Positions 7,444-32,066 of a DNA stretch of 32,085 nucleotides are shown here, piece after piece (position 1 is the first letter of the stretch; every line of letters starts with the position of its first letter). The translations under genes were made by a program, and so were the position numbers. The DNA is taken from IMG/VR virus record IMGVR_UViG_3300030098_001856, positions 9,394-41,478 of that record; one strand, given 5' to 3'. Origin of the DNA: a virus. The notes below the pieces were generated by a model. That model was given only the letters and a program-made list of their open reading frames with translations, had not been told where the DNA came from and ran no database searches.

Positions 7444-7816
7444 AGAACAACTAAAGGAACAGCTAGAGGAAAGAAAAAAGAAGTGGTGGGGATGGCATAA
7501 AGAGAATCCTCAAGTGTGGGAAAAGTTTGAGGAATATACACTGGAAGCTATAGCAACAGGTAGGAATCATTATTCACATTGGGCTATAGTAAATCGTATT
7601 AGATGGAACAGGGAAATAGAAACGAAGGGTGGTGAGTTTAAGATTAGTAATGACTATATTTGTTTTTATGCCCGACTGTTTCATGCCAAACATCCTGAAC
7701 ACAATGAGTTTTTTAAATTAAAACCCCTGAAAGAAGAAAAACTAATTTCTGACTTAGTTTCCCAAAGAGATCATTGGAACGTTAGCTTTCTCCCTCAAAG
7801 CGGGAATAATCGCTAA
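7430..7816 (+). CDS. Conserved phage protein, last rightward gene
   Basis: A 128-residue protein. Three consecutive ATGs (7430, 7433, 7436) follow an AAGGTG ribosome site, so the start is uncertain by one or two codons; a GTG at 7424 overlaps that site and is unlikely. The core WGWHKENPQVWEKFEEYTLE, then GRNHYSHWAIVNRIRWNREI, TKGGEFKISNDYICFYARLF and KHPEHNEFF, matches a protein family I know from many phages and some bacteria, whose function is unknown. Its last 63 bases overlap, tail to tail, the end of the giant late protein gene on the other strand. The final residues (SFLPQSGNNR) look poorly conserved. Confidence 0.8.
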   Translation: MMMLEEQLKEQLEERKKKWWGWHKENPQVWEKFEEYTLEAIATGRNHYSHWAIVNRIRWNREIETKGGEFKISNDYICFYARLFHAKHPEHNEFFKLKPLKEEKLISDLVSQRDHWNVSFLPQSGNNR

Positions 7817-13800: not shown

Positions 13801-16519
13801 ACTCTTCTTGATACTCTCTTCCACGAGTCGCTACTGTCTCAGAGTTTAAAGCAATGGCTCTATCATAAAAGGTTTGACCTTCAAATTGAGCATCATAACT
13901 TTTTGGAACCTTTGCTCTTTTAACCTGCTTTCTAAGATATTGATATTCTGATTCTGTAATTAAATCTTTTGTACGGAGAGCATGAATCATTTCATGGTCT
14001 AGAACCTGCATTAATCTATTTTCTATTTCTTCCTGTGAGGCTGTGCCATCAGGATTAACCGCATTAAGAGACAAGAAAATAGTATCTGTGCTTACATCAT
14101 ACTCACCTTCAACAGCACCTTCTGTTGGTGTAGCTCTAGTTATTCTTGGGTCGTAAATAATATTACCAGAAGCATCTTCTGCTAGAGTTGTTGTAGAAAG
14201 AATGTCATCACTAACGATAACTGCTGTTTCTTTTAAACCTCTTTTGTTTAATATCTTTTTAGCTTCTTGTGCAAACTTATTTATTTTTCCTTGCTCAACG
14301 GCTTCAGCAAAGTTAATAATCTTAGGCTCTATTTCTTTTGGTGGAAGCGTTCCCTTTTGATTCTCTCTTGCTTTTTCTACCAATGTTTGAATAACATCTT
14401 CAGGAACTTTGTTTTCTTGTCTTAGTCTTGCTTCATATTCATCGGGAGTTTCATTAAAAGCCTCAGACCTTCTAGCAATATCGTACTGAAAGTTTTTTCT
14501 AATTTTATATTTGTTTGTTCCCTCAACCTTTTCGGCACGACCACTGGTAGTAAGATCACTAATAAATTGTTCTGTGGCTGTTTTGTTTTTATATGTTGGG
14601 CTGGTTTCTTCTGATAAGAGTTCTTTAACAGTAAACTCTGCATCTTGACTGGCTTTAGACGCAACAAAATTGGCAACATCTATTGCCGTGTATTCTCTGG
14701 GTCTAAAGTCTGGGAATTTTGTTTCGGTGCTAAACGTAGGTAGGGAGTGTATGCGAGCCAAGAAGAGTTCCTTAGCAGGTTTTCCTGCTTTCGTGATATT
14801 TTCAGTACCAGTCCAGCGTAATGCAGCGTATCTAACCGCAGGTGATTTAAAGTCTAAATCAATATTTTTTGACGCAGCCAAATCTTTCATTGCCTTAACG
14901 CTTGTATTGACTTGTTCTTTGTCAGCTCTAATAGAAGGAATGCCATCTTTTTCGGATTGTTCAAACACTACTTGTGAACGATCTTTTAAAAGATTGGTGT
15001 AGTCTTTCTTATTAAGAATCTTTTGAGTCTCAGCCATCGAGTAATTACTCTTTAGGTCAAGACCTTTTGATTGAACGTATTTGCCAATCTTGTTTAGTTT
15101 TGGACCGAGCCTTGCAACTCTTGCTTGACTAAACGCTTTTTTGTTTGGTCCAAAAATATCTGTTCTTTCTTTCTGTAAAACTTTCTTTTGTTCTTCAGAT
15201 AAGGTTGTATCAAGGTCGATAACGCTGGATAGATTAACCTCTCCAATATTTGGGTCACGAATCGTTGATCCGATTACATCAGCAGTAGAGCTTTCAGGAA
15301 GTCCTAAGTTATACTTTGCTTGATCTACTTCATTCTTTGTTATCTTTCTTTGGTAATTGTTTTCTTGTTTGTCTTTAAAAACAAGTGCCTCTGTTTCTTG
15401 AGCAAAGGTTTGAACAATTGGATTTTCAGGATCAGTAGCATCTATAACATTAAATGCACCATTGGCATCTTCAATAACTTCTAATGATGGGATAATGTCT
15501 GGATTTGCTGGCAGTGTTATTTCATTAGGCTTATCGCCTATTGGTTGATCTTGAGCAACCTCAACATCTCCTTGATCTATACCTTTTTGGAATTTGTTTT
15601 CTTCAATGGTAGAAGCTACATTATCTCTAGCCGTTTTTTCATACTCTCTTAGATAAGCTCTGCTTTTGGTTCTTCCTGACATTGCATTAACAGCAAAGTC
15701 AGCAAATCCACCAACTGCACCACCTATAGTAAACTCATCAAAAAGACTTTCGCCTATTGGTAATTCATCACTATATAAACCACGAGCTAATAAATCTTGA
15801 GACAAACTTGCTGTAACTTCTTGTAAAGCTTCTACACCACCTGATTGTGCAGCCGAACTCAAAGCTCCTTTTATGTCCATATACTTTGAAGCATTCTTAG
15901 GAACTTTCTTTAACAAGTTAAATACTGGCAATACTTCAGATAAACCTATAACCCCACCGCCTAACTCTGCAAATGTCTCAGCAAGCGCTCCTACGTCTTC
16001 TCCTTGCTCCTTAGCCATGTTCATTCGGTCAACCTGTTGGGCTATACCTGCTGGAGCAGCAATTGAAGCTGGGGCTAAAAACATTGGGTTACGAGCATAT
16101 GGTAGTTTTGCGCCAACACCCCTAGTCAGAAGTGATTTACCTATAGCACCAGCACCTAGAAACGGACCAAATGAACCCAAGCCTTCTCCAAACTTAGTCA
16201 TCCATTTGTCAGCATAGGCTGGATCAGCAGCCAATGATGATTCGGTTCTTAAAAAATCTTTGTATTGTTGCAAGCCTTGAACAAGGTCGCTGTCGTTGCC
16301 TATGTCAAATAATGATGCTACACCTAAAGGTACATCAGCAACCATAGATAAAGCCCCTCTAGGTACGCCCTTAAGTGTTTCTTTGGCTTGCCCTAGAATG
16401 GTTGTTTCGTCTAAATCATCCCCAAACTTTTCTTTAACAATTCTAACAAAGCGCTGTCTATCTAGTGGGTCTGTCGGAATATTATATTGATTTCCATTGG
16501 GGTCAGTATAAATACTCAT
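7754..16519 (-). CDS. Giant virion/polyvalent protein with three HExxH metallopeptidase signatures
   Basis: A 2921-residue protein, last gene of the late operon, in the place where podophages encode large ejected internal proteins. The N-terminus (1-290) has Gly/Ala-rich hydrophobic stretches and an ALQEV segment. Three zincin-like signatures follow: HEMIH at 842-846 with candidate third ligands E911/E915; HEVLH at 1196-1200 with E1305; HEAIH at 1758-1762 with E1857. The second and third belong to a duplicated unit (about 1125-1366 and 1650-1917), both ending ELITYGL, then LEKIPY, GKKS and LLGVPAK. PLFSR recurs at 1453, 1606 and 2011. The C-terminal part resembles polyvalent-protein region LPD38 (RRGLSPMFRV and PFMNARIQGLDVL, about 2538-2571), followed by a hydrophobic helix near 2600. 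Families of this type are thought to be injected with phage DNA and to disarm host defences; that role here is inferred. No frameshift is seen. Confidence 0.85.
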   Translation of the reverse strand: MSIYTDPNGNQYNIPTDPLDRQRFVRIVKEKFGDDLDETTILGQAKETLKGVPRGALSMVADVPLGVASLFDIGNDSDLVQGLQQYKDFLRTESSLAADPAYADKWMTKFGEGLGSFGPFLGAGAIGKSLLTRGVGAKLPYARNPMFLAPASIAAPAGIAQQVDRMNMAKEQGEDVGALAETFAELGGGVIGLSEVLPVFNLLKKVPKNASKYMDIKGALSSAAQSGGVEALQEVTASLSQDLLARGLYSDELPIGESLFDEFTIGGAVGGFADFAVNAMSGRTKSRAYLREYEKTARDNVASTIEENKFQKGIDQGDVEVAQDQPIGDKPNEITLPANPDIIPSLEVIEDANGAFNVIDATDPENPIVQTFAQETEALVFKDKQENNYQRKITKNEVDQAKYNLGLPESSTADVIGSTIRDPNIGEVNLSSVIDLDTTLSEEQKKVLQKERTDIFGPNKKAFSQARVARLGPKLNKIGKYVQSKGLDLKSNYSMAETQKILNKKDYTNLLKDRSQVVFEQSEKDGIPSIRADKEQVNTSVKAMKDLAASKNIDLDFKSPAVRYAALRWTGTENITKAGKPAKELFLARIHSLPTFSTETKFPDFRPREYTAIDVANFVASKASQDAEFTVKELLSEETSPTYKNKTATEQFISDLTTSGRAEKVEGTNKYKIRKNFQYDIARRSEAFNETPDEYEARLRQENKVPEDVIQTLVEKARENQKGTLPPKEIEPKIINFAEAVEQGKINKFAQEAKKILNKRGLKETAVIVSDDILSTTTLAEDASGNIIYDPRITRATPTEGAVEGEYDVSTDTIFLSLNAVNPDGTASQEEIENRLMQVLDHEMIHALRTKDLITESEYQYLRKQVKRAKVPKSYDAQFEGQTFYDRAIALNSETVATRGREYQEEFFVEEAIAEMYRARNFKVQMPPKAKGIFNKMVEFFRSMGQAMRISGFKRTSQIFSEIEAGKVGSRERDVIRTLMQTDKLPPSAFDQEQAVEVEDEIGTEEDMDADDVVTGRPVVVPRIDPTKPFSETDADTSPITGVFIDGSNIPNPPPSSIIPYNKESLSTEEYNQQKEQIVNGLISAGIIEKTPRTSGGYRGVNDTSTVEVAKWLADNAPSEDYRIIARKSFESLKQLQKKGIKFPFVIDSSNKNLAGAQGHISYRSLTRNKFTLRLNNSKNYQSRISNGVNFEVALHEVLHSATVAQMLNPNKTAKGKKAYKELTLLQDKVNDYISEKGKEWKKLADEGKFDELDSIAENESKTMSDYIQRIKSKNKFAITNFEKHNFAYKVNGIQKGSPTKDVAELITYGLTNRPFQEFLEKIPYSPKGKKSLWNSFVETMRGLLGVPAKLDTALSSFLQNASNALEVGAEGITLETTLQQQEDDTTTSSYTSPTDERIESLNQVIYGLQRQLDLDTMSPNTRDRISREIYKLQDEVINLERSQEVEASGQVPLFSRSSKNIASISRENKRRLRNHPDFIDDPDALDEYIDEFKGEELYILDDDTYGPDRQYFPDVPLTASSIGISRAVLEDYGYVERQEFDTKSGEIFRNNRNQEKFYEDLGNNKFRLYFNPDGYKRRQATVSSPTLDDLLNESWFEADFRATTPLFSRATINKNTPVDFPPYEVLSKIKGKSLTEVMDVIAKEDKSLSIIARKTKEQLMKFEKQGVTYSINVIQGDSKGNKAVNNSHLTDETLELIRNKEGAKEILTDHFLNDYAKGVAVTFPSASTDTGGATKNIDIYLNNFNTASGLNYRVILHEAIHGATLPLFEAGRRSYLGTPKSQKAYEGFSRLRDRLIDHQNSIKDEMDQVYEEGRKELGSEFVGTLDEMQYLVSKGYNKYEIRGEDHPVFDKENIQELITYGLTDLDFQQYLEKIPYAPQGKKSVWDEFVEIIRELLGVPAKQNSALSEVLSLSQDMLSADTIEISNALIQSLGDRRGTSLMQESSRFATEENTSENIKLREAVDRAEEIVKQTPRGEIPIYNINASDVALKAAIEFNEDITAPMPSKNVPLFSRASIPSEFNDVIKRTGKSPEPTQPYGVRLLDVINNPVENIRKAFKDTRQNFIDKLDKVDKKILAGSESNEDVRLANNAASTATMAALRMGDRARGVFQSMLMIGTPQSTIEGEDALTNVQALEISTRYNPFIAGNKGTGGLMQIMAPLYANPSVNLEEVFGIYAKLKRVQKLQQEGREFETPITPKDLEQIRVIETKYKSVVEAWNNYQKWNNELISFAEDKGLLNAEQAELWREQSSYYPFYREMVDDEGITAPTIGGGSLPNNPLNIEMKGSQREINVNPVEAIARNSLSILTGAMKNDGTSKLLRDLETMGEARRVSPREKKEGNLNTIFSFEDGQKQYWEIDDVELFHGVQAIGGVKTDAVTRFLAFPSAILRDTVTRDPGFVVVNLLRDTLSAAVTSGAPLYGDGFTPMVDTVKNMFADISDLEKFGVIGGYDFQNDEGSVKQLMDRARRQKGLSPDNGMNAENAFYKLWDGLGALTTKSDGATRLAVYNAVYNDMKKRGSSEAEAQSEAAYQALEIINFGRRGLSPMFRVVTSAIPFMNARIQGLDVLYRSASGQYSATERLQEGETLDDVKNRIQRKFALRASAMIAATALYYLLVSDTDEYKEVKREVRDDNWIIPTGLGYAIKIPIPFEVGMLFKAIPERLIDATIGRGVEKDPAKSIFRQLGTSAEVPFLGGDISIQAIKPIFEVAINRNSFTNSEIVPYYQQKSLPAYQSRKSTNELARIMGEFFNISPIKIEHVINGYTGTLGGYVLDIIDVFTRSITGTPVIPPNINDIPVLKRLFIDLDKSGGLQQQFYELRSEVERATITLNKLKDQGRYDELTAYREHNKGIFQVKSQINAINRYMANYRKKRDRIMQRTDISMSAKSDMIRELELDRDRRLAIIPALREKANVPMISLGN
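10768..11570 (-). repeat. Internal duplication copy B (third HExxH unit)
   Basis: Encodes residues about 1650-1917 of the giant protein: IIARKTKEQLMKFEKQGV, a HEAIH motif, ELITYGLTDLDFQQYLEKIP and ELLGVPAKQNSALSEVL. It is clearly related at protein level to copy A, and most similar in the last 60 residues. The N-terminal part differs by insertions. Boundaries are approximate. Confidence 0.75.
12421..13145 (-). repeat. Internal duplication copy A (second HExxH unit)
   Basis: Encodes residues about 1125-1366 of the giant protein: IIARKSFESLKQLQKKGI, a HEVLH motif, ELITYGLTNRPFQEFLEKIP and GLLGVPAKLDTALSSFL. It pairs with copy B. The shared order of helix, HExxH, ELITYGL and LEKIPY supports duplication of one metallopeptidase domain followed by divergence. 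Confidence 0.75.
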
Positions 16520-16521
16520 TA

Positions 16522-17790
16522 TTATCCAACTTTAGTACCTTTAAAGAAATCTTCATCGTTTTGTGTTTCTACACCCAAAAGAAGTGAATATGTTGAACTA
16601 AAGGTTTCTAATTCTTCAGGAGTTAATGTAACTGTTCCGTCTTGAATTAATTTTGCATATGCTTCGTATTGTTTTAATTTTGCTATTCTTTGTTCCTCTG
16701 GCATAGCTTCTATTTCAGCTTTTGCTTGTTCTGCTTGAGCTTCATAGTAAGCTTGTTGTGCGCCTGCTAATCCTGCTTCACTCTTTCTTTCTTGCATTTG
16801 ACCAGCTACTCCAGCAATACCAGCACCAAGCTCAGACATGTTTCTAGCACCCATAAGGACTCCGCCTAGTTGTGCCATAGTTAATCCTTGATCTGGGGTT
16901 ATGTTAGAGAATAGACCGCCTTTCTTTGTTGCTGTTCCACCAGTATCTGTATCTATAATTGTGTCTGTATCATCTACTACTGGACCTACTACTGGACTCG
17001 TAACTGGTTTATCTTCTTCTTCGCTTCCCTCTGGTAAAACTTGACTTGCTAAAATACCACCACCAATTATTCTTGGAGCAACTTTTTTAGCGGTTTCTTT
17101 TCCTGCTTCGATAGCTTGTGTTGAGCCAAATCTACTTTTCGGTCCTAAATTATATTTTTTACCTAATGTAAATTGACCTAACCTGTTAAGCATATTTCTT
17201 CCAGCCTGTCTTATTCCAGTTGGAGTAAGCATTCTTGCTGCACCTAAAAGCCCTCTGCCTACACCTAATGCTGTTGCTCCTGCTGCGGAAGGAGCAATAG
17301 TTGCTACTGTTGCAGCAGTTATTACGCCATCTTTAATAGCCTGACTCCAATTAACTGTTCCATCTTCATCCATATATCTAGCTGATATATCATCTATCAT
17401 TCCTTGAGTCATCGCTTGCATATCTTCAGGTCTTTGATTTGCATAAGTGGTTGCACCCATAGCAAAGAAACCAGTACGACCTCCATCAGCCATCATTTGC
17501 ATTGGAGACTCAGGCATAGGCGCAGGCATGTCTTGAGGCATGGGTTGTTGAGCCATACCCTGTAAACCTTGAGGAGCCATAAACTCAGCAACTGTTTCTT
17601 CAGCAACTGTTGTTTGTGGTTCTGCTTGGGTTGCTTGTGCTTGGTAAGCTTTTTCTAATTGAGTTCTTCGTTGTATTTCGCTTAAAACTAAAAACTGTGG
17701 ATAAGTAGAATTAGGGTCTTGTGTCATTTGTGCCAATTGATCTTTTGGCATATATTCTAATTCTTCTGCTATTTGTATTAGGTTAGCCAT
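16522..17790 (-). CDS. Virion-associated protein of marine-phage type, unknown role
   Basis: A 422-residue protein. The N-terminal region ELEYMPKDQLAQMTQDPN, then YPQFLVLSEIQRRTQLEKAY, matches a recurring but uncharacterised phage pattern. A Met/Pro/Gln-rich linker leads to the motif MMADGGRTGF at 99-108, then an Ala/Gly-rich hydrophobic stretch (about 158-190), an acidic Asp/Thr linker (270-290), and a helical C-terminal part rich in Ala, Gln and Glu. No enzyme motif is visible. Its ATG overlaps the previous gene's stop by one base, and the giant protein gene starts 2 bases after its own stop. It may be an ejected or internal virion protein; I infer this only from position. Confidence 0.75.
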   Translation of the reverse strand: MANLIQIAEELEYMPKDQLAQMTQDPNSTYPQFLVLSEIQRRTQLEKAYQAQATQAEPQTTVAEETVAEFMAPQGLQGMAQQPMPQDMPAPMPESPMQMMADGGRTGFFAMGATTYANQRPEDMQAMTQGMIDDISARYMDEDGTVNWSQAIKDGVITAATVATIAPSAAGATALGVGRGLLGAARMLTPTGIRQAGRNMLNRLGQFTLGKKYNLGPKSRFGSTQAIEAGKETAKKVAPRIIGGGILASQVLPEGSEEEDKPVTSPVVGPVVDDTDTIIDTDTGGTATKKGGLFSNITPDQGLTMAQLGGVLMGARNMSELGAGIAGVAGQMQERKSEAGLAGAQQAYYEAQAEQAKAEIEAMPEEQRIAKLKQYEAYAKLIQDGTVTLTPEELETFSSTYSLLLGVETQNDEDFFKGTKVG

Positions 17791-19070: not shown

Positions 19071-19543
19071 TTTTCTTCCTCAAAATTATATTCAAAACAA
19101 ACCGCAGTTTTGTCCCATTTTTTATCTTTTATCCAGTTCCAAAATCCAGAGCGACCAACACCTTCAATGCCATCACACTTATTGTCTTTCGCCCATTTTT
19201 CCAGCATTCCTAATCCGTCATCAAACCAATAAGACATATTTTTGCCAGCAACATGATCTAGATTTAGCATTTTTTTACCCGTTGGGTAGCTACTAATTTG
19301 TGTAACCGCACAACCTATTATCTTTAAGTTTCCTGTATCAAAACAAATCCACAAAGAGCATTCATTATTAAGGCATTGATAAAATATATCTTGGGTTGTT
19401 ACCCTGCCTTTGGATCGCTTGCAAGATTTTCTCAAGTATTTTTCTACTTGCTCCCATATTATCATTAACTGGTCTGGCATAATTAAAGAAATATTATATT
19501 CTCCAGAAGCAGCTTGGTTTGGTCTGTATGCTACTTGATTCAT
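19067..19543 (-). CDS. GNAT-like acyltransferase fold protein (T7 gp13-like)
   Basis: A 158-residue protein with a pattern common in podophages: PDQLMIIWEQVEKYLRKSCK, RSKGRVTTQDIFYQCLNNEC, SLWICFDTGN, VTQISSYPTGKKMLNLDHVA and WAKDNKCDGIEGVGRSGFWN. This is the layout of the GNAT-superfamily proteins encoded beside internal virion genes, including T7 gp13. The acetyl-CoA loop is not clearly canonical, so catalysis is uncertain. The family sits among tail and internal-protein genes and may modify or help assemble a virion protein. It overlaps both neighbours by four bases. Confidence 0.75.
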   Translation of the reverse strand: MNQVAYRPNQAASGEYNISLIMPDQLMIIWEQVEKYLRKSCKRSKGRVTTQDIFYQCLNNECSLWICFDTGNLKIIGCAVTQISSYPTGKKMLNLDHVAGKNMSYWFDDGLGMLEKWAKDNKCDGIEGVGRSGFWNWIKDKKWDKTAVCFEYNFEEEK

Positions 19544-22500
19544 GCTGGTAATAAGCCACCTTTATTAGCAAGTCTAGGCGCTTGTTCAGTTGTCCCTGTT
19601 TTAGTTTGCCTTACTCTATCCATCATGCCGTAAAGCTCTTCTGATCCAGCTTGAGAACTGCCATCACCCAACATAGAGACAACATCAGCAGGAATAATAA
19701 ACTCATCTTGAGACACTGCTATTTTTTCTTTATCTCCAATTATTCCATTAATATCGTCATCCATTCCACCATTGCCAACTCCTTCAATCAAACCTTCTGT
19801 TTGTGCATTTGGAGCTAACTCTTGTAAAACAGCTTCTCTTAATTGTAAAAATAATTCATTGCCATATTTTTCAACGAAAGCAGGAATAACTTCTTGGTTG
19901 TCAGAATTTCCCAAAACAAACTGAACAACTTCTGATGCTAATGGGTCTTTCTGTACTATCTCAATAAGCATAGATTCTGAGTCAGTGCTTCCGCCTACTG
20001 CTCTTCCGCCTCTTCCTCCGCCTCTTTTTCTTCCGCTTTTCTTTTTAGGCTCTGGTTTAGGAGGTGTAACCATTTCTTCTTCTATAGATATTTCATTACG
20101 TTTAGGTCTGCCCAAATCAATTACATTTCCATCAGGCATAATTGCTTGAAGACCACCATCAAGAATAACAGTTCCATTTGGCATTTGAGTTCCCATTCTT
20201 GTTCCTTTTCCTCCTCTGCCACCACCAGTGTCAACCACAACACGACCATCATCTCCTTGTGGAACTATTCTTGGTGAAGCTGTATTTGGTGGAGCTATTC
20301 CAACAGGTAGCTCTGGTTGCATGTCAGGCTTAGGAGCCATGCTCATAGGCAATTCACCAGAAAGAATTTTTTCTTTAAGCTCTGCATTTGTTAATGGTAG
20401 TTCGGGTGGTGGCGGTGCGATTACAGTTCCAAATGGCGTGTTACCACCACCTATGTCTGGATTCATGCTCATTAAAACTTCTTGAGAAATATTGTCCATA
20501 AAACTGTCTGGAGGACCAATATCAACTGTTCCAACTGGAGGGGGTCCATCTGGAAATCTATCCTCTGGTGACATTAAACCCACACTTGGTTGGTCTTTAT
20601 AAAAATCCATAAAATTAGAATAATTAATGTCTTCGTTAATAGGCATATTTATATTGGGCATATCAAATGTAGGCATATCTATGGGCGGTATACCTAAATT
20701 AGGTTGTCCAACTGGATTTTCAATATCAGGATCAGGCATATCTATATTAGGATATAACGGATTATTCGGATCAAAATTAAACGGATAATCAATACCATAA
20801 TCATCCCAATTAATATTAGGTATATCTATATCACCAATAATATCATCCCAATTAATAGGAAAGTCAGGAGGAAATATAGGTGGAGTAGTAGGTGGGGTAG
20901 TTGGCGGAATAACTGGTGGGAGAACTGGTGGAGTTGTATCTACTGGAACATCTGGGATCGCAGGAACCTCTGGCTGAACAAATTCTAATCCAGCAGGAGC
21001 TGAACCAGTAAACTGCTCATAAGGATTAATGGTTGTTGTTGGTGCTATGGTTGCTTGAACACCACCAAAACCACCTTTGCTTCCTTCGTAAGTATCTTCA
21101 AGGACTGGCGCTCCACCTGTTGTTGTTGCTGTTGCTGGTTGATTCAATGTGTTTGGTTGAAAATACATTGTTTCTGGAGCAAACCCAGCTAAAAAGTCTG
21201 GATTAACTGCATAAGCTTGTCTAGCTGGTGTAAATCTTTGTTGATCTCCTGAAAAATTATTAAAATCCATATCGCCAAAATCATTTCTAAGGATTCCACC
21301 CATATCGTAACCAGTTCTTCCACCGCCAGCCATCATTGATAATGCTGCAATATCTGCTTGAACCGATGGGTCCATATTTGTTGAACCACCACCAGCGCTA
21401 TATAATATAGGCTCAGGTGTGTTTAAGAAATTTTGTCGTCTGCTTTCCTCTTCTTCTTCTTGCATTCGCTGCATTTGTGCTGCATATGCTTCTTCAGATT
21501 CCATCATTGCAGTTGGAGCCATTCCGCCATACATTGCTGTCATTGCTAATGGGTCAGTAAGACCAGTTGCTAAATGACCAACTCCTTCCTGAAATCCGCC
21601 TGAAAAAATATTTTGCAATTGATTTGGCTCTGAAATATTAGGAAGTGAAGTTGTTAAAGGATTAGCTCCAGCCATTGCGGTTTCTGCTAACGCCTCTGCT
21701 CCAGCTCCTGTTGCAAGGTTACTCGGAACACCAGGACCTGCCTGACCTAATGGCATTGTTCCTAAAGTTGTTGTTGCGTCTGCTGCTGCTCCTGCTGCAT
21801 CTGCTGCTCCTGCTGCTGCTTCTGCTCCTTGTAATGCAGAACCTACACCATAACCTGTTACACCAGCTAACAATCCTTTCTTAAAGTCACCTGTTGCTGC
21901 CCATTGAGCCAATCCTGATCCTAGTGCTGATGCAGTTAAAGCGCTCATACCACCAACTCCAGCTAAAAAACTACCTCCCAATAAACTTCCTGCTAAGGGT
22001 GCTAAGAAAGGAAGAAAAGCTTCAGGCTGTCCTGTCTCTGGATTTACTGTTAAAGGCATAACTTGTGATAACCCACGCACTTCTGCTGGATTAACGTGCA
22101 TTAGCATTGAATCTCCATAACGACCCTGTGCTGCTACATTTTGTGTCTGTTGTTTTATGTCCATTAATCCGCCTCCTGCGTATTGTCCTGCTAATTGCAT
22201 AAGTTCATCTCTATATTTTTCTTGTAAATAATCAGGCAAAAATTCAATAGCATAATCAGGGTTCCTTACATATGCGTCTGGATTTTCTCTCATTCTAGCT
22301 ACTCTTTTTTGCAAAGTTTTTAATTGATTTCTACCCAGCTTAGAAGCAACATTAAATGCTGGTTTTTGTGGAGGCATAGGTCTTTTTTCTGCACTCACTG
22401 TAATTTCTTCTAATGATGGCATTCTTGGTTGGGCGCTTACTGTAATCTCTTCAATTGAAGGCATTGTTGTATCTGGCATATTTTTGTTTCCAAATACAAC

Positions 22501-22812
22501 ATCAGACCTTGTATTAGAAACTGGTACATCTTCAACAATTCCACGAATAGGTTCTGCTGATATTTCACCAATTAATTCGTTTTCTCTGTTTCTTATGGTT
22601 TCAGTCAATTGTGCAAAATTCATTTTATCTTCTTCAGTAGGAAGATAAATTCCTTTAATATTTCTAAGTTGCTTATTTAAATCACTTAATACTTTATCTT
22701 GTCTCAACATTTTATTTTGTTGCATTCTTTGTTGCATTCGTGAAAATATGCCTCTTAATCCAGAAAAAGAGCGATTTGTTTTTTCTTTTTTTATTTCATT
22801 CTTTTCTGCCAC
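19540..22812 (-). CDS. Large structural protein with Pro/Asp-rich middle and conserved C-terminus
   Basis: A 1090-residue protein with several segments. A basic helical start (about 1-60) is followed by two tandem copies of MPSxEEITVSA. Next comes a conserved-looking part (GRYGDSMLMHVNPAEV, then QVMPLTVNPETGQPEAFLPF), an Ala/Gly-rich hydrophobic stretch (about 270-370), and MMAGGGRTGY at 493-502. A proline repeat region then leads into Asn/Asp/Pro-rich repeats (IPNINWDDYGIDYPF type, about 620-740). The C-terminal part has KIAVSQDEFIIPADVVSMLG, then YGMMDRVRQTKTG. This last pattern is widespread in marine phage virion clusters but has no known function. It lies between the tail genes and the GNAT-like gene, so it is likely a virion component. 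Confidence 0.75.
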   Translation of the reverse strand: MAEKNEIKKEKTNRSFSGLRGIFSRMQQRMQQNKMLRQDKVLSDLNKQLRNIKGIYLPTEEDKMNFAQLTETIRNRENELIGEISAEPIRGIVEDVPVSNTRSDVVFGNKNMPDTTMPSIEEITVSAQPRMPSLEEITVSAEKRPMPPQKPAFNVASKLGRNQLKTLQKRVARMRENPDAYVRNPDYAIEFLPDYLQEKYRDELMQLAGQYAGGGLMDIKQQTQNVAAQGRYGDSMLMHVNPAEVRGLSQVMPLTVNPETGQPEAFLPFLAPLAGSLLGGSFLAGVGGMSALTASALGSGLAQWAATGDFKKGLLAGVTGYGVGSALQGAEAAAGAADAAGAAADATTTLGTMPLGQAGPGVPSNLATGAGAEALAETAMAGANPLTTSLPNISEPNQLQNIFSGGFQEGVGHLATGLTDPLAMTAMYGGMAPTAMMESEEAYAAQMQRMQEEEEESRRQNFLNTPEPILYSAGGGSTNMDPSVQADIAALSMMAGGGRTGYDMGGILRNDFGDMDFNNFSGDQQRFTPARQAYAVNPDFLAGFAPETMYFQPNTLNQPATATTTGGAPVLEDTYEGSKGGFGGVQATIAPTTTINPYEQFTGSAPAGLEFVQPEVPAIPDVPVDTTPPVLPPVIPPTTPPTTPPIFPPDFPINWDDIIGDIDIPNINWDDYGIDYPFNFDPNNPLYPNIDMPDPDIENPVGQPNLGIPPIDMPTFDMPNINMPINEDINYSNFMDFYKDQPSVGLMSPEDRFPDGPPPVGTVDIGPPDSFMDNISQEVLMSMNPDIGGGNTPFGTVIAPPPPELPLTNAELKEKILSGELPMSMAPKPDMQPELPVGIAPPNTASPRIVPQGDDGRVVVDTGGGRGGKGTRMGTQMPNGTVILDGGLQAIMPDGNVIDLGRPKRNEISIEEEMVTPPKPEPKKKSGRKRGGGRGGRAVGGSTDSESMLIEIVQKDPLASEVVQFVLGNSDNQEVIPAFVEKYGNELFLQLREAVLQELAPNAQTEGLIEGVGNGGMDDDINGIIGDKEKIAVSQDEFIIPADVVSMLGDGSSQAGSEELYGMMDRVRQTKTGTTEQAPRLANKGGLLPA

Positions 22813-25201: not shown

Positions 25202-25594
25202 TTATTTCTCGTTTTTTTCCTCTTCGTCTTCATCAATGTCTCTGTAATAATCAACAATATGCAATATTTGCTCTAAATACCTAGTAATCTCGCCCATTGT
25301 CATTGATAAATTTTCATAACCTTGCGATGTCAAACCATAATAAGCAACTCTGGGTTCTTCTCCAGATTCAACCTTTTCAATATACTCTTCCATAGTGTCT
25401 GGGTTCAGAATAACCCATTCAACAGGGGGAGTGTCGATTGGTTCTGGCAAAGGAGGATGATAGATTGGTGTCCGCTTCGCAACATTGACAACCTCAACAG
25501 GCTTCACTTGTGGCTCTCTGTTACCCATCTCACCCAACAAAGAGTATGTAGAGCAGCCGTTAATTAGAGGTAGAAGTATTAGTAGTCTCTTCAT
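25202..25594 (-). CDS. Lipoprotein, putative o-spanin
   Basis: A 130-residue protein with a short type II signal peptide (MKRLLILLPLINGC, lipidated Cys predicted at 14), so it should be anchored to the outer membrane and face the periplasm. A proline-rich segment (about 45-65, PPLPEPIDTPPVEW) and a helical acidic C-terminus follow. Its first 35 bases overlap the end of the i-spanin candidate in another frame, the usual Rz/Rz1 arrangement. Function would be outer-membrane disruption at the last step of lysis. The length is greater than Rz1 of lambda, so the call rests on lipobox, proline content and overlap. Confidence 0.65.
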   Translation of the reverse strand: MKRLLILLPLINGCSTYSLLGEMGNREPQVKPVEVVNVAKRTPIYHPPLPEPIDTPPVEWVILNPDTMEEYIEKVESGEEPRVAYYGLTSQGYENLSMTMGEITRYLEQILHIVDYYRDIDEDEEEKNEK

Positions 25595-25967
25595 CGCTTG
25601 TTAGTAATTTAAAGTTTTCTATAACCCTTGCTGTCGCCCGATTAACTTTTCCTTGCAAAACTAAAGGTTCTGTCATTGCCATTCCCTCTAAGTTAAAGTT
25701 GGCAAACTTACTTCTAAGCTTGGTTACTGTTGCTTGAGAAGCGCTGTATTGCGTATTTAGGGTTTGTATTTGAGCTTGTGTTTTCTTAGCAGACTCTAAG
25801 GCTTTTACAATTTGATCGTTTTGTTCTTGTATCGTTCTTTCTAGTACAGCTTGATTATTAATTGCTGTTTGTAGTTCAACTTTTGCTTTATCTAACTTAG
25901 TAAACGCAACTATATTAACCATAATGGAAACAAAAAGCAGACCACCTATAACTAAAGCAAGTTTCAC
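25560..25967 (-). CDS. Membrane-anchored coiled-coil protein, putative i-spanin
   Basis: A 135-residue protein with one N-terminal membrane helix (residues 3-22, LALVIGGLLFVSIMVNIVAF), then a long periplasmic coiled coil (KVELQTAINNQAVLERTIQE, EQNDQIVKALESAKKTQAQI and onward to about residue 90) and a flexible Ser/Thr end. This is the Rz layout. Together with the overlapping downstream lipoprotein it would bridge inner and outer membranes and fuse them in lysis. It follows the holin candidate after 18 bases, giving a holin, i-spanin, o-spanin order. Confidence 0.7.
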   Translation of the reverse strand: MKLALVIGGLLFVSIMVNIVAFTKLDKAKVELQTAINNQAVLERTIQEQNDQIVKALESAKKTQAQIQTLNTQYSASQATVTKLRSKFANFNLEGMAMTEPLVLQGKVNRATARVIENFKLLTSDEETTNTSTSN

Positions 25968-25985: not shown

Positions 25986-26360
25986 TTATGTTTTTTTATG
26001 GCTGTTTGTATATAATCCAAACCAAGCTGCGCCAGCACCCACAACAATCGAAATCAATCCTGATTGTTCAAAACTAGGGTCTGTTAAATCCATAAACCAA
26101 AAGGTTGTAAAATACAGTAAATACATATACACCGCTAAAAAAGCTCTAGGTATAATTCTCCAACTATCTATTGCTTGTGCTACAAAAATAAATTTTTGAT
26201 AAGGGTTGTCGTTCTTTTTGTCTTCAAGCTCTCTTATACGATCTTTAAGTGAAGCATTCTCTTGAAGCATTTCCATGAACTTAGATAAGTCCATCTCAAC
26301 TTCATTTCGAGACATATCTCCACCAAATCTACTGCTTGGATAATGTTCTTCTTCGCTCAT
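25986..26360 (-). CDS. Putative holin, two transmembrane helices
   Basis: A 124-residue protein with a soluble charged N-terminus containing a short coiled coil (LSKFMEMLQENASLKDRIRE, 25-44). Two membrane helices follow, at about 69-91 (IIPRAFLAVYMYLLYFTTFW) and 100-118 (GLISIVVGAGAAWFGLYTN), with a short basic tail SHKKT. Small size, two helices, charged tail and position just before the spanin genes suggest a holin, which would perforate the inner membrane. The long soluble N-terminus is atypical for a minimal holin. An accessory membrane protein is the alternative. Confidence 0.6.
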   Translation of the reverse strand: MSEEEHYPSSRFGGDMSRNEVEMDLSKFMEMLQENASLKDRIRELEDKKNDNPYQKFIFVAQAIDSWRIIPRAFLAVYMYLLYFTTFWFMDLTDPSFEQSGLISIVVGAGAAWFGLYTNSHKKT

Positions 26361-26361
26361 A

Positions 26362-26727
26362 TTAATTCGCCAATGGGTTATCGTTTTTGTTTTTTAAACT
26401 CTGAACATCATCATACATAATGTCAATGCTTGAGTTAATCCCTGCAATGCTTGTTTGCATAGCAACAATGTCATTTTTAATCGGACTTAAATCTTGTGTC
26501 TCTATGTTTAACGATTTAATTTGCTCGTCAACTGCGACTACTTTTTTATCCAAGTCTGTAACTTGATCCGCAAGTGCATCAATCTCATTAATATAACGAG
26601 TCATTTTAGACTCAAGATTCTCTATGCGATTAACATACGTTGCGCCCGTATATCCGAAACCAGCTAGCGTACTAACTATACCTGCTAGTGCAATAAGCTG
26701 TGTTGTTTTACTTTGAAACCAATCCAT
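26362..26727 (-). CDS. Single-pass membrane coiled-coil protein
   Basis: A 121-residue protein with an N-terminal membrane helix (residues 10-31, LIALAGIVSTLAGFGYTGAT), then a long coiled coil (RIENLESKMTRYINEIDALA and onward, with regular hydrophobic heptads to about residue 110). It could be an antiholin, a spanin-like or a tail-needle-like membrane factor. Only topology can be read. It is separated by one base from the holin candidate and by 8 bases from the exported nidogen-like gene. Confidence 0.65.
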   Translation of the reverse strand: MDWFQSKTTQLIALAGIVSTLAGFGYTGATYVNRIENLESKMTRYINEIDALADQVTDLDKKVVAVDEQIKSLNIETQDLSPIKNDIVAMQTSIAGINSSIDIMYDDVQSLKNKNDNPLAN

Positions 26728-26735
26728 ATCTACTC

Positions 26736-29126
26736 CTATAAATTAGGTTGCATACTAATTAAATTATTTATTTCGTTTAAATTTTTGCCATACATTTGAG
26801 CAAATGCAACATTATTATCAGGAATATTAGCATTTGCATAAATATCTTCTGGCTCATACCAAGTAGCAAGCTTTGGTAATTCAACTTGTGTATATCCATT
26901 AAACCCTTGAACATATCCCATGTATGCAATCAATTGAGACTCATCTGCATACTCACCTGTTTCTTGTTGTTGCTGTTCTAACTGTTCTTGTTGATCTTCT
27001 ATATTTTTTGCAACAATCTGATCGGCAATTAAATCTGCTTCAGAAGCAGGCATTTCAGACATTGCTGTACTAATTTCTAACTCCATTGAGCCAACTGCTG
27101 TGTTTTGTGAGCCACTATTATTTGTATCACTTTGACCAACTGCTACGTTTTGTGAACCAGTAGTATTACTCGAAACGCTTGTATTTGTTGAAGTATTAGA
27201 AGCAACAGTTGTTGAACTGCCAACAGAAGCATTATTGCCACCCATAGTATTTGATCCGCTTTCGCCAACAGAAGAATTATTACCACCTACTGCAACATTG
27301 CTAGAACTCATCGATAAAACTTGTTGAGTTTGTATTGCAGAACTTGTTACTTGTGCAGAAATACTAGGCGAATTACTGGTGCTTATACCGCCTCCTGACG
27401 CTGAACTAGCTACTGCTGTGCTTGTAGTGTTAGAAACGCCACCAGAAGCCACAGAAGAAGCGTAGGAGCCTCCTGATGATATAGATGTACCTGTAGCCTG
27501 TGCAGATGTTCCAGAGGTTGTGCCGCTTACACTATTACTTGCTGCTCTAATAGAGTCTGCTACAACATTTAATTGTTTTGCTTTTTTGCTGTCTTTTTTA
27601 TCTTCGCCCTCTGCGATAACAACTTCGATAGTTTCTTCTCTATCTTCGCTCTCTTCATCAATTGTTTCGTTATCTTCCAAGTCATTAAATTCTTCTTCAT
27701 CAGAATCAGCAAGTTGTTCAAGTATTTCTTCACTTTCTTCACTTTCAATCCACTCCTCAATTTCTTCTATTGTTTCAAACTCAAGAAACTCAATTTCTTC
27801 TTCTTCTATATATTCTTCAAGATTCTCTTGATATTCAAAATGATTTAATAAGACATCTTCTAATACAGGAAGATCGTAGTTTGTTTCATAATATTCTTCT
27901 ACCAACAAAATTTCTTCATATATCTGTTCTATATAAGGCTCTTCTTCGATATAACTTAAAGGAATAAAAATTTCTTCGGGCAGTAAATCAAATTCTTCTA
28001 TAAAAGTCTCAAGGTATTCTTCTTCAAAATACAGTGTTTCTTCGTAATACAATTCTTCTTCGTAATATTGTTCTTCAAAATAAAGTTCTTCTTGGTAAGG
28101 GTCTAATCCTTGTAACTCAGCAATATATATAAGCTCTTCTTCATAGTAGTAATCTTCTTCGTAATACGATTCAGTGTATCCGTACTGCTCTTCTTCATAG
28201 GTTTCATAGCCGTACATATCTTCTTCGTAATAAGTGTCTTGGACAAAAGTTTCGACCATATATCCAGCACAAGCTGGCGAATACTGCGAGTCCAAAGTAC
28301 ACTCATAATCAAACAAATCATCCCAATAGTTAGGACACTGAGTAGAATACAATCCATCTAAGTCACATTGCTGAGTTAAATATGCTGCTCCATATCCTGA
28401 ACAAGCAGTGTTGTTTAAGGGGTTGCTGCAATCCAAAGCATTGCCAGAACCTAGACCATATAAACTGCCCCCATTTTCTAATAATGTATTAAATGAGGTG
28501 TTATTCCAATTGGTATTAACACAAGTGCCTGCAACATTTGTTGTTCCTGTGCTGCATTCATCGTGAAATAAATAGGTATATAACTCGTCTGCTGCGCCTT
28601 GTTCACCGATCAATACATCGTGATTAATAATATCCAATGCCCCGTATCGAAATTCAAAACTGTCGTCTGACTTCCATAATATGACCTCAAAAGAGTTATC
28701 TGTGTTGCCTCGATTGTATTCCCGTAGGTTGTACCACCCAAAGACTGTTTTGTCGGTAAAGTTTCTAGCCAACACACTTGAGCCGTTGTCTCGTATTAGA
28801 TCAGTCCAAAAAGGATATAATGTGTATGTTATTTCAGGCAGTGGATCAGGTGTGTAGTCATTACAATAACCTCCTGACGACCCAAAGTGTAAACAACCAT
28901 TCGTTGCCATTCTAGCAGATGTAAAGTCTTCACCATAAAAAGTAAAAGTAAAATCTAAATTAAAAGCACTGGATACTTGGTCATCACCAACACCCATATT
29001 GTTAGAAGTAGCTATATAGTTTGTCTTTAAATCAATAAGAGATTGATTTGCTTCGTAAATATACCCTGCATTTAATGTAGGTATAAATAAAACAAAAGTT
29101 AAACTAACTGCCCTTATCAAATTCAC
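26736..29126 (-). CDS. Exported nidogen-like, Tyr/Glu-rich and Ser/Gly-repeat protein
   Basis: A 796-residue protein with a signal peptide (cleavage expected after residue 20, PTLNA|G). Residues about 60-165 resemble a NIDO (nidogen-like) domain: LYPFWTDLIRDN, TVFGWYNLREYN, NSFEVILWKSDDSFEFRYG. A Cys-containing part (about 190-300) follows. Then comes a remarkable Tyr/Glu tract (about 300-500: YYEEDMYGYETYEEEQYGY and similar). A Ser/Gly/Asn/Val region (about 520-680) has NVAVG-x-(S/N) and NTAVGS units that recall the beta-roll repeats of YadA-type adhesins and phage fibres. The conserved-looking end (LIAYMGYVQGFNGYTQVELP, then WYEPEDIYANANIPDNNVAF) suggests a real domain. Its start overlaps the Asn/Thr repeat gene by 23 bases. 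Exported location is supported; function is unknown. Confidence 0.75.
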   Translation of the reverse strand: MNLIRAVSLTFVLFIPTLNAGYIYEANQSLIDLKTNYIATSNNMGVGDDQVSSAFNLDFTFTFYGEDFTSARMATNGCLHFGSSGGYCNDYTPDPLPEITYTLYPFWTDLIRDNGSSVLARNFTDKTVFGWYNLREYNRGNTDNSFEVILWKSDDSFEFRYGALDIINHDVLIGEQGAADELYTYLFHDECSTGTTNVAGTCVNTNWNNTSFNTLLENGGSLYGLGSGNALDCSNPLNNTACSGYGAAYLTQQCDLDGLYSTQCPNYWDDLFDYECTLDSQYSPACAGYMVETFVQDTYYEEDMYGYETYEEEQYGYTESYYEEDYYYEEELIYIAELQGLDPYQEELYFEEQYYEEELYYEETLYFEEEYLETFIEEFDLLPEEIFIPLSYIEEEPYIEQIYEEILLVEEYYETNYDLPVLEDVLLNHFEYQENLEEYIEEEEIEFLEFETIEEIEEWIESEESEEILEQLADSDEEEFNDLEDNETIDEESEDREETIEVVIAEGEDKKDSKKAKQLNVVADSIRAASNSVSGTTSGTSAQATGTSISSGGSYASSVASGGVSNTTSTAVASSASGGGISTSNSPSISAQVTSSAIQTQQVLSMSSSNVAVGGNNSSVGESGSNTMGGNNASVGSSTTVASNTSTNTSVSSNTTGSQNVAVGQSDTNNSGSQNTAVGSMELEISTAMSEMPASEADLIADQIVAKNIEDQQEQLEQQQQETGEYADESQLIAYMGYVQGFNGYTQVELPKLATWYEPEDIYANANIPDNNVAFAQMYGKNLNEINNLISMQPNL
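27680..28245 (-). repeat. Tyr/Glu-coding low-complexity tract
   Basis: Degenerate repeats of TTCTTCTTCGTAATA type (plus strand) encode runs such as YYEE, LYFEE and EEEL in the exported protein. The tract is strongly biased to two or three amino acids and gives spurious open frames on the other strand. Confidence 0.75.
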
Positions 29127-30291
29127 GCTTACAAGTCAGCCTTGATTTATTTTGCCCAGAAGAGTTTTCAGTTTTAGCGCATTTAGCAACATAGCTGGCT
29201 TTAGCTTCTTTATAGTCTGGGCGATCTTTAGGGTTTGCTGCCCATGCTGCTCTTGCTTCCTCGCCTATCTTGCCCTCATACGGGCATGGAGTACCAGCCA
29301 TATACATCGCACTAAATACTCTAACGTCTTGGCACATAATAGCAACTGCTGCGACTTTCATACCCATATCATAAAGATACTTACCTAGTTTTAGTCTTTC
29401 ACAGTTTTCATCTCTAACTGTTCTTCCAGCAGACAAACCAAATACTTGTCCTTGAAATGCACCAGACCGACCTACAGTACAGAGGTCTTGGCTGTAGCTC
29501 ATTATAGAAGGAGCAATCGCAGAAGCAGGCGGTGCTTCAGTCTTGATGTTTTGATTAATAGTTTGCTCAGATTTCGACTCATTAATGTTTCGATTTGTGT
29601 TGTTAGAAGTGCTGGTGTTTTCATTAACATTTTTATTGTCTGTGGTTACGTTTGAGTTTGAGTTCGACTCGTTTTTATTTACGTTTGTGTTGTTAGATGT
29701 TGATGACGAAGTGTTGTTGTTGTTATTTGTGTTTATGTTTGTATTCGTACTTGTCGAAGTGTTGTTGTTGTTATTTGTGTTAGTCGATGTACTAGTATTG
29801 TTATTGGTATTAGTGCTTGTCGAAGTATTTGTATTTGTATTTGTATTATTATTTGTATTGCTCGATGTGCTTGTATTTGTATTGTTATTTGTATTTGTTG
29901 CGGTTGATGTCGAAGTATTTGTATTTGTGTTGTTGTTGGTAGCAGTCGAGCTATTAGTATTATTATTAGTATTGGTGTTAGTATTTGTTGCTGTTGATGT
30001 ACTAGTATTGTTATTTGTGTTGTTGTTGGTATTAGTGTTTGTATTTGTGTTAGTACCAGTAGATGTAGTAGTTGTTGTATTAGTATTGTTATTAGTATTA
30101 GTATTAGTATTGGTGTTGGTGTTAGTGTTGGTATTGGTGTTGGTATTCGTATTAGTTGTAGTTGTAGTCGATGTCGTAGTCATCGAGTTTTGTTCGCAAT
30201 ACTGATCCCCAGCAGTACAGTCACCAGTTTGATCTGCTTGTGCATCATTTATAAAAAAAAATACAGCAAGCAATGAAATATATTTTTTCAT
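29104..30291 (-). CDS. Exported Asn/Thr-repeat protein with Cys-rich C-terminal domain
   Basis: A 395-residue protein with a signal peptide (MKKYISLLAVFFFINDAQA, cleavage before D20). Residues about 37-250 are almost only Asn, Thr and Ser in NTNT, NNNT and TSTS runs, presumably disordered or beta-helical. The C-terminal part (about 255-395) is a conserved-looking domain: YSQDLCTVGRSGAFQGQVFG, RTVRDENCERLKLGKYLYDM, MKVAAVAIMCQDVRVFSAMY, TPCPYEGKIGEEARAAWAAN. The cysteines could form disulfides outside the cytoplasm. I recognise the C-terminal pattern from other phages, without a known role. Four bases overlap the nuclease gene before it and 23 bases the nidogen-like gene after it, so the two exported proteins are made together. 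Confidence 0.8.
   Translation of the reverse strand: MKKYISLLAVFFFINDAQADQTGDCTAGDQYCEQNSMTTTSTTTTTNTNTNTNTNTNTNTNTNTNTNNNTNTTTTTSTGTNTNTNTNTNNNTNNNTSTSTATNTNTNTNNNTNSSTATNNNTNTNTSTSTATNTNNNTNTSTSSNTNNNTNTNTNTSTSTNTNNNTSTSTNTNNNNNTSTSTNTNINTNNNNNTSSSTSNNTNVNKNESNSNSNVTTDNKNVNENTSTSNNTNRNINESKSEQTINQNIKTEAPPASAIAPSIMSYSQDLCTVGRSGAFQGQVFGLSAGRTVRDENCERLKLGKYLYDMGMKVAAVAIMCQDVRVFSAMYMAGTPCPYEGKIGEEARAAWAANPKDRPDYKEAKASYVAKCAKTENSSGQNKSRLTCKREFDKGS
29541..30183 (-). repeat. Hexanucleotide-like Asn/Thr coding repeat
   Basis: A degenerate tandem repeat with a six-base period (Asn codon plus Thr or Ser codon) runs for over 600 bases. Synonymous changes break the unit throughout, so selection on the protein, not simple DNA slippage, seems to hold the pattern. 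Copy number is likely to vary between relatives. Confidence 0.8.
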
Positions 30292-30707
30292 ATGCTATCT
30301 GGGTCAAACAAACCATTTGCAATTAATGTTTGTCTATTAGTAATGTGTTCTTTTTCTATTTCTTCTTTGCTCTGTCCGTAATATTCAACTGCAAGAAAGT
30401 TATCAATTAAAGATTGATTGATATTTGTATCGCCAACATGAAGCTCTCCTAATATACGACCAAACTTGCCTTTTTTATCTTTTTTGGTTTTTATAACAAC
30501 ATCACCTTTAGATAACTCTTTAACCAAAAAATCTTTACTCATAAGACCTCTAGCCTTTTCATCTTTATCTCTAGTGCGGGATTCTGGTGTATCAATGCCA
30601 TACATACGAACTCTTGCCTTATGAAATATAGAAAAACCACAATCAATAATTACATCGACTGTATCACCATCTACAACTCTTGCTATTTGACAATTATATT
30701 CAAACAT
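30288..30707 (-). CDS. Staphylococcal-nuclease-like (SNase) thermonuclease homologue
   Basis: A 139-residue protein of the SNase fold with the catalytic set intact: RVVDGDT (D13, D15), R34 and D39-T40-x-E42 in ARVRMYGIDTPE, and R84 in KGKFGRILGEL, equivalent to D21, R35, D40, T41, E43 and R87 of the staphylococcal enzyme. INQSLIDNFLAVEYYG follows as expected. It has no signal peptide, so it would act in the cytoplasm, perhaps degrading host DNA or RNA to feed phage synthesis, or act late in the cycle given its operon. Calcium-dependent DNA/RNA cleavage is family knowledge. It overlaps the next gene by four bases and the 43-residue gene before it by one. Confidence 0.9.
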   Translation of the reverse strand: MFEYNCQIARVVDGDTVDVIIDCGFSIFHKARVRMYGIDTPESRTRDKDEKARGLMSKDFLVKELSKGDVVIKTKKDKKGKFGRILGELHVGDTNINQSLIDNFLAVEYYGQSKEEIEKEHITNRQTLIANGLFDPDSI

Positions 30708-31239: not shown

Positions 31240-31407
31240 TTATCCAAAAATTATTCCAGCCATACCAATTACCAAAGTAATCAGTGTAGCCACTATAAAG
31301 TGTTCCAGTCGTTTAACCCTGTTAATAACTTCTAACCATCGCTCTGCACAGACTGCTTCGTGGCTTTCTATTTTATTATTAACAGTAGCTACAGTCATTT
31401 TAGTCAT
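31240..31407 (-). CDS. 55-residue XhlA-like coil plus membrane protein
   Basis: I chose the ATG at 31407, which overlaps the TGA of the oxygenase gene (ATGA), over a longer frame from 31497 that reads the oxygenase gene out of frame. The product starts MTKMTVATVNNKIESHEAVC, then a charged helix (ERWLEVINRVKRLEHF) and a terminal membrane helix (IVATLITLVIGMAGIIFG). A short amphipathic helix followed by a C-terminal membrane span is the layout of XhlA-type haemolysin/holin helpers. This is a topological likeness only. Confidence 0.65.
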   Translation of the reverse strand: MTKMTVATVNNKIESHEAVCAERWLEVINRVKRLEHFIVATLITLVIGMAGIIFG

Positions 31408-32066
31408 GCTGCCTCTACTTCCCAACAATTCAAGTTTGAAGCAACTGTTCGTCTTTCTCCTTCGCCTTTGAATGGATAAACCATGTGAGATAACCAAGAA
31501 GGAAATAAATACAGCTTTCCAACTTCAGGTTGTACTTCAAAACTTTGCGGTGGTCTTAATCGTTCTACATTCATTATTTCATTACGACCATAATTAAATG
31601 CTAAGTACCCATCACACGCACCAGACGCTTCGTATTTATTATACAAAGGACTGCCAGCAGCAGGTTGATCCAGTATCTGTTGTGGCACTTTAGTCCAACA
31701 AGTCGTTGATATGCCCATAATTGTTTTAGTGCCGTGATCGTGTATTGGGTTGTAATCACCAGCATAACTATGAACCGACCACGTTTCGTCTATCGCAACT
31801 TGCCGATTCTTTTTAAGGTTACTGCCTGTTTCTTTCATAAAATGATTAATGTATTGAGCACCTAGCAAAGTTACAAACTTAGAATATTGTCTAACCTTTT
31901 CATGTTCTGGGTCCATATTTAATTGCTCACCATGAGCAATCTGCCCTACCAATGAATGTGCCAATGATTCTTTATCTGCTTGTTCTCTAAGATCGTCAAG
32001 ATAAGTATTTAAGTCCTCAACCATGCCGTCTGGCATACGAGTCTCTAATACGAACACCGAAGGCAT
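31404..32066 (-). CDS. 2OG-Fe(II) oxygenase-like protein
   Basis: A 220-residue protein (as counted from ATG 32066) of the 2-oxoglutarate/iron oxygenase type that phages often carry. A metal site candidate is H109-D110-H111 in YNPIHDHGTK. The second half has the family pattern LYLFPSWLSHMVYPF with H194 as distal ligand, then GEGERRTVASNLN with R205/R206 to bind 2-oxoglutarate. Substrate unknown; nucleic acid or protein hydroxylation are options. The frame stays open to the right edge (residues DVNIWT would precede this Met), and the ribosome site here is weak, so the gene may start outside the window and be 5'-partial. It is the first late gene visible. Confidence 0.8.
   Translation of the reverse strand: MPSVFVLETRMPDGMVEDLNTYLDDLREQADKESLAHSLVGQIAHGEQLNMDPEHEKVRQYSKFVTLLGAQYINHFMKETGSNLKKNRQVAIDETWSVHSYAGDYNPIHDHGTKTIMGISTTCWTKVPQQILDQPAAGSPLYNKYEASGACDGYLAFNYGRNEIMNVERLRPPQSFEVQPEVGKLYLFPSWLSHMVYPFKGEGERRTVASNLNCWEVEAA

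Follow-up and report, generated by a model that had tools for sequence, protein, structure and literature searches.

What does a phage do with a large, apparently exported protein whose gene sits among its lysis genes? The question is raised by a gene, termed B here, in a stretch of viral DNA of 32,085 nucleotides that was analysed as a whole and is called the window. Positions 26736–29126 form one open frame on the minus strand, with a GTG start at 29126 and a stop at 26736, and encode 796 amino acids. From N- to C-terminus, the protein consists of a signal-peptide-like N-terminus (residues 1–21; 29064–29126), a β-rich NIDO head with conserved cysteines (residues 22–232; 28431–29063), a Cys-rich stretch of “CxGY..AY..QQC” repeats (residues 233–290; 28257–28430), an acidic tract (residues 291–515; 27582–28256), a Ser/Gly/Asn linker with AVG repeats (residues 516–690; 27057–27581), and a conserved C-terminal domain with the motif “WYxPxxIYxxxxxxDN” (residues 691–796; 26739–27056). 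B is the middle gene of a conserved three-gene unit, A-B-C. An earlier, sequence-only reading of this DNA missed both the two partner genes and the fact that the head can be swapped.

A single scan of viral contigs recovered 155 relatives of B, 80 of which were kept, and the A-B-C set is carried by many ocean and freshwater phages. No relative of the B head was found by tblastn among catalogued phages (best E 0.9), and two peptide-pattern scans of bacterial genomes found no relative of B. Across 35 full-length relatives, mean identity to window B is highest for the head (69%), followed by the Cys-rich stretch (60%), the C-terminus (52%), the linker (43%), and the acidic tract (34%). The dN/dS ratio between the window and three close relatives is 0.05–0.06 for the head and 0.11–0.18 for the C-terminus of B. 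Given 155 relatives and a head ratio near 0.05, the frame and its layout are more than chance. By the conservation and dN/dS figures, selection on B acts on its head, its C-terminus, and the acidic character of its stalk.

The N-terminus of B is built like a Sec signal (MNLIRAVSLTFVLFIPTLNA followed by GYIYE). When export potential is scored as the best 11-residue hydropathy within the first 32 residues, B reaches 2.25, and A, B, C and two spanin-like proteins together span 2.25–2.90, compared to 1.73 or less for the other 21 of the 26 window proteins tested. Among relatives, the signal-like character of B is retained while the N-terminal sequence falls to a mean identity of 21%. Over all loci, many of which have wrong automatic starts, hydropathy is at least 2.0 in 81% of B genes and 90% of A genes. 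Moreover, the B head has cysteines that are invariant among relatives, as are the four cysteines of the A domain (58 of 58 members), which is expected of proteins that fold outside the cytoplasm. At the level of sequence, these features make export of A and B well supported, and the earlier proposal that B is exported stands. Neither protein has the lipobox cysteine at the end of its signal that characterizes the Llp/Cor lipoproteins, nor a known outer-membrane anchor, so B could stay periplasmic.

The identity of the head emerges from the family. Window B alone gives no NIDO match in Pfam, PHROG or NCBIfam. One relative (L027) matches Pfam NIDO (PF06119) at 30.5 bits against a gathering cut-off of 25 (E 4.4e-7), and the family has the head motif “FYGxxF..A..NGC..F...PFWTD” in common with PF06119 proteins. 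In addition, the profile built from the 35 relatives aligns over about 155 positions with the N-terminus of RemA of Flavobacterium (8gl6_D; E 1.9e-10, profile positions 8–164). The NIDO-like domain proposed earlier therefore holds for the family, although it goes undetected in window B by itself. The phage heads differ from other PF06119 members in their phage context and in the Cys-rich repeats that follow. RemA is a 1436-residue cellular adhesin of the gliding and type IX secretion machinery, and its later domains are all absent from phage B. The structural model of B predicts β-strands at residues 55–187 and is poor overall (mean pLDDT 46); Foldseek searches with it yielded nothing at E 0.001, and its VIA Z scores stayed at 4.3 or below. 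Structure searches with the full B model and the gene A domain gave only weak matches, the best viral one being A0A6J5NEV5 (E 5e-5, 10% identity). The head can be placed in a known domain family; neither the unit as a whole nor the common C-terminus of B matches any family searched.

The Cys-rich repeats after the head vary in number among relatives. They bear a weak likeness to Plasmodium CPW_WPC in 23 of the 35 relatives (best E 0.0018), which is under the cut-off for window B. The AVG repeats of the linker had been likened to those of β-roll adhesins, a comparison that loses force since they are confined to the closest relatives and match no adhesin repeat in Pfam. Pfam profiles of YadA-like trimeric adhesins and autotransporters likewise found nothing in window B (E 0.1) or in the 35 relatives (E 1).

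The acidic tract contains 75 Glu and 29 Tyr among its 225 residues, and residues 297–416 hold 39 Glu and 26 Tyr with no Lys or Arg. Its net charge stays between -56 and -88 across the 35 relatives, while the share of Tyr varies between 13% and 0%, and Phe or Asp often takes its place. The conserved property of the tract is acidity, not Tyr. The B proteins of large phages have hardly any such tract (Glu averages 3% of B). Because Tyr is not conserved and large phages all but lack the tract, it looks like a replaceable stalk, and the special role once suggested for it, in binding metals or surfaces, is weakened.

Gene A (29104–30291, minus strand) encodes an exported protein with an Asn/Thr repeat linker and a C-terminal domain that holds the four invariant cysteines; its end overlaps the start of B by 23 nt. 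The tandem repeat (TNTNTNTNNN) occupies about 200 residues between signal and domain, and a 206-residue antisense frame (29585–30205) crosses it. One of 58 members of the A domain matches the profile of T4 Spackle (PF25676) at E 0.095, and structure searches gave no confident fold match. A hairpin in the A model (residues 18–39) was considered as a membrane-inserting strand pair and dropped, its hydropathy alternation having p 0.2 or more.

Gene C (26362–26727, minus strand) encodes an N-terminal membrane segment, a coiled coil, and a conserved “NPLxx” end. It is followed on the same strand by a small protein with hydrophobic segments (25986–26360; phrog_10198), which is a holin candidate by position only, and by an overlapping spanin-like pair (25202–25967) made up of an inner gene (25560–25967) and an outer gene with the lipobox LINGC (25202–25594; phrog_812). 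This pair confirms that B lies in the lysis region, as had been claimed. Just upstream of A-B-C are a staphylococcal-nuclease-like gene (30288–30707) and a 2OG-Fe(II) oxygenase (31404–32066); a nuclease gene is found near the unit in 48 of 80 related loci. The holin-like, nuclease and spanin-like neighbours switch side or order among relatives, and A-B-C stays together.

Both SAR11 phages and large phage contigs carry the unit, and in the loci whose surroundings were inspected it mostly sits next to lysis genes. The C-terminal domain of A is common to the SAR11 phages HTVC033P, HTVC202P, HTVC115P, HTVC023P, EXVC032P and Mosig, and is also found in one roseophage and in uncultured phages. In most of these records, the next sizeable gene after A has a signal-like N-terminus, to which the pelagiphages add an acidic tract. 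The heads of these proteins differ from NIDO, being CBM_4_9-like in HTVC033P, EXVC032P and HTVC202P and of still other kinds in HTVC023P, Mosig and HTVC115P. In EXVC032P, an open frame of 62 residues separates A from B. In the roseophages CRP-207 and CRP-810 (L093 1834–3295; L340 5827–7213), A is followed by a short, headless B with an EIY-type motif near its end.

An alignment scan with the A domain gave at least 600 matches, some in contigs of 200–350 kb. Across 325 loci that hold an A domain, a B-sized gene follows in 247 of 326 hits, and 33 of the other 79 are within 700 nt of the end of the locus. Distinct B proteins sort by head into groups (NIDO 117, large-phage 68, CBM-like 21, HTVC023P type 4, singles 8) whose sizes reflect the choice of queries, not abundance. 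At least two of the single-member clusters arose as artefacts when genes were picked automatically (e.g., L236; gene A of L093). The large-phage head features the motif “GFxFxWxxKNGNGWDDG” (L161 5293–7566 and relatives, in contigs of up to about 350 kb) and matches no Pfam family in the members scanned.

The third gene also recurs. The gene after B ends in NP[LYF] in 99 of 116 NIDO, 59 of 70 large-phage and 19 of 21 CBM-like cases, compared to a background of 254 in 5468 ORFs of that size, those C genes included. Profiles of C match between the NIDO and large-phage groups (E 9e-29) and between the NIDO and pelagiphage groups (E 6e-15); reversed controls reach no better than 0.005. Since coiled coils push scores of this kind upward, the case for C also leans on its position and its NPL ending. 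No description of A-B-C was found in the open-access literature, and the three-gene set has apparently been undescribed until now.

The C-terminal domain ties together B proteins with different heads. Between the NIDO and large-phage groups, hhalign aligns the C-termini with a probability of 98.8% (E 4.1e-17), and between the large-phage and pelagiphage groups the profile probability is 90% (E 1.5e-6), with reversed controls at E 0.14 or more. Direct comparison of the NIDO and pelagiphage C-termini is weak (probability 8–11%, E 0.003–0.004), so the link between these two groups runs through the large-phage family, which matches both. Exchange of the head itself can be seen between closely similar loci. 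Over gene A, the B signal region, the 3′ part of B, and the downstream genes, the DNA of L213 is about 90% identical to that of L230; their heads (L213 1901–2802 and L230 2104–2900) have no similarity. The same pattern occurs between L234 and L237 at 78%. A head swapped inside otherwise similar DNA shows that B is built to carry different heads.

This anatomy fits the envelope-attached display of a binding head, made late in infection. B is of a gene type so far read as part of the particle, and judged from sequence it probably acts on the host envelope late in infection. It is tentatively proposed, at somewhat under even confidence, that A-B-C is a phage envelope machine of an undescribed kind that displays exchangeable heads on the infected cell, in SAR11 phages and large phages alike. 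The unit would be expressed late and linked to lysis, with A and B exported through Sec and C held in the inner membrane, its coiled coil probably in the periplasm. The C-terminal domain of B is the most likely docking end, to A or to C, and the acidic and Ser/Gly parts would form a flexible stalk that holds out the exchangeable head (NIDO here). This picture, and the masking role described below with it, draws on the A-B-C order kept across head classes, the cohesion of the unit while neighbouring lysis genes change sides, the NP[LYF] ends, the C profiles, the common C-terminus of B, and the head exchange. It also draws on the restriction of export signals in the window to A, B, C and the spanin pair, on the invariance of the A cysteines, and on the RemA-like head. 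Gene order, modular layout, exchange of heads, and homology to NIDO can be read directly from the sequences, whereas docking, ligand, and masking are inferred.

The most likely ligand of the head is a glycan or protein in the envelope of the infected cell itself. Receptors would then be occupied late in infection and on debris after lysis, so that superinfection is stopped and progeny are not lost on dead envelopes. Such masking of receptors by late-made B is possible and is the leading account of its role, though it is held with less confidence than the display machine itself. It is ranked first because exchangeable adhesin- or lectin-like heads fit surface ligands that vary between strains, and because envelope proteins with this task are already known from phages. 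T5 makes Llp, an envelope protein by which superinfection is blocked, and proteins of this sort are considered to keep phages from adsorbing to lysed fragments (PMC9586334). Like B, T5 Llp with related exclusion proteins and T4 Spackle are phage-encoded, exported, and act in the host envelope against superinfection (PMC9586334, PMC7677548), if that is what B does. However, those are small single proteins, while B is large, modular, without lipobox, and accompanied by two partner genes; the likeness is one of character and proposed role, with no homology seen. Several points count against masking. The role is not specific to the anatomy of A-B-C, and the head ratio near 0.05 indicates strong purifying selection and gives no pointer to a short-term arms race. 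With neither lipobox nor recognized outer-membrane anchor in A or B, B may also not reach the cell surface. The host coating and superinfection block suggested by the sequence-only reading are kept as the likeliest role, and its alternative of a virion surface fibre is disfavoured.

The position of A-B-C brings another reading close behind masking, namely an accessory lysis machine in which C and A would bridge the envelope while B, its head recognizing a host surface layer, loosens or attaches to the outermost layer so that the cell opens. The unit lies among lysis genes (the holin-like gene and spanin-like pair here, lysozyme or peptidase M15 in pelagiphages), and C resembles Rz/Rz1-type spanins in its N-terminal membrane segment, its coiled coil, and a weak Rz-like PHROG match (E 1.7e-4). 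However, that match is one among many coiled-coil matches and of the kind any coiled coil gives, the window phage has a separate spanin-like pair, and C ends in NPL and travels with A and B. Moreover, lysis needs no exchangeable lectin-like head, and searches revealed no enzyme domain in any of the three proteins. This reading is considered unlikely, if still a serious contender.

That B is instead a receptor-binding protein or fibre of the virion, with an N-terminal hydrophobic segment that is no export signal, is the reading nearest to existing annotation. Genes for a “putative carbohydrate binding domain containing protein” have been read as host recognition (PMC3909814), and the B gene of an uncultured Mediterranean phage (AP013540) carries that annotation. 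HTVC033P gp45 and the AP013540 protein resemble window B in their position after A, export signal, acidic tract, and following C gene, and gp45 also has a C-terminal FYxxxxIY motif; they differ in their unrelated CBM_4_9-like head. Lectin-like heads and head exchange would suit receptor binding. Nevertheless, a virion fibre would be produced in the cytoplasm and carry no export signal, while the signal-like N-terminus of B is conserved in character, and such N-termini are widespread in both A and B throughout the head classes. None is seen in this phage's structural proteins, and the conserved cysteines and the constant company of membrane protein C and exported A also speak against a particle component, making this reading improbable.

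Elsewhere in the window, two late proteins (16522–17790 and 19540–22812) have common “A(D/G)GGRTG(Y/F)” motifs; the second is long, partly Pro-rich, and has no match in Pfam or PHROG. A single 2921-residue protein (7754–16519, minus strand) is, by position, perhaps an internal virion or ejection protein.

As improbable as the virion reading is a secreted or surface adhesin that sticks infected cells to neighbours or particles so that progeny are freed close to new hosts, which the likeness to the RemA N-terminus, the long acidic stalk (as in extended surface proteins) and the dilute water inhabited by the carriers would favour, but which would have little time to act if B is made late, as its lysis-linked position suggests, and for which no outer-membrane anchor is recognized in B.

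Display of exchangeable heads on the infected cell, with masking as its likeliest use, would bear on a prominent group of viruses. SAR11 phages are among the most abundant on Earth. Among the identifiable genes in metaviromic islands, those annotated as carbohydrate-binding occur most often and have been assigned to host recognition (PMC3909814); these share their annotation with the B gene of AP013540, and some may be B genes. If at least some of the island genes encode exported B of an A-B-C unit, then the site of action of these variable lectin-like genes would shift from the particle to the infected cell. If masking is true, A-B-C would be a new form of phage superinfection control; otherwise, the unit could be of its own kind. 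In either case, three adjacent genes in cultured pelagiphages offer a testable target for superinfection control or lysis in streamlined marine bacteria.
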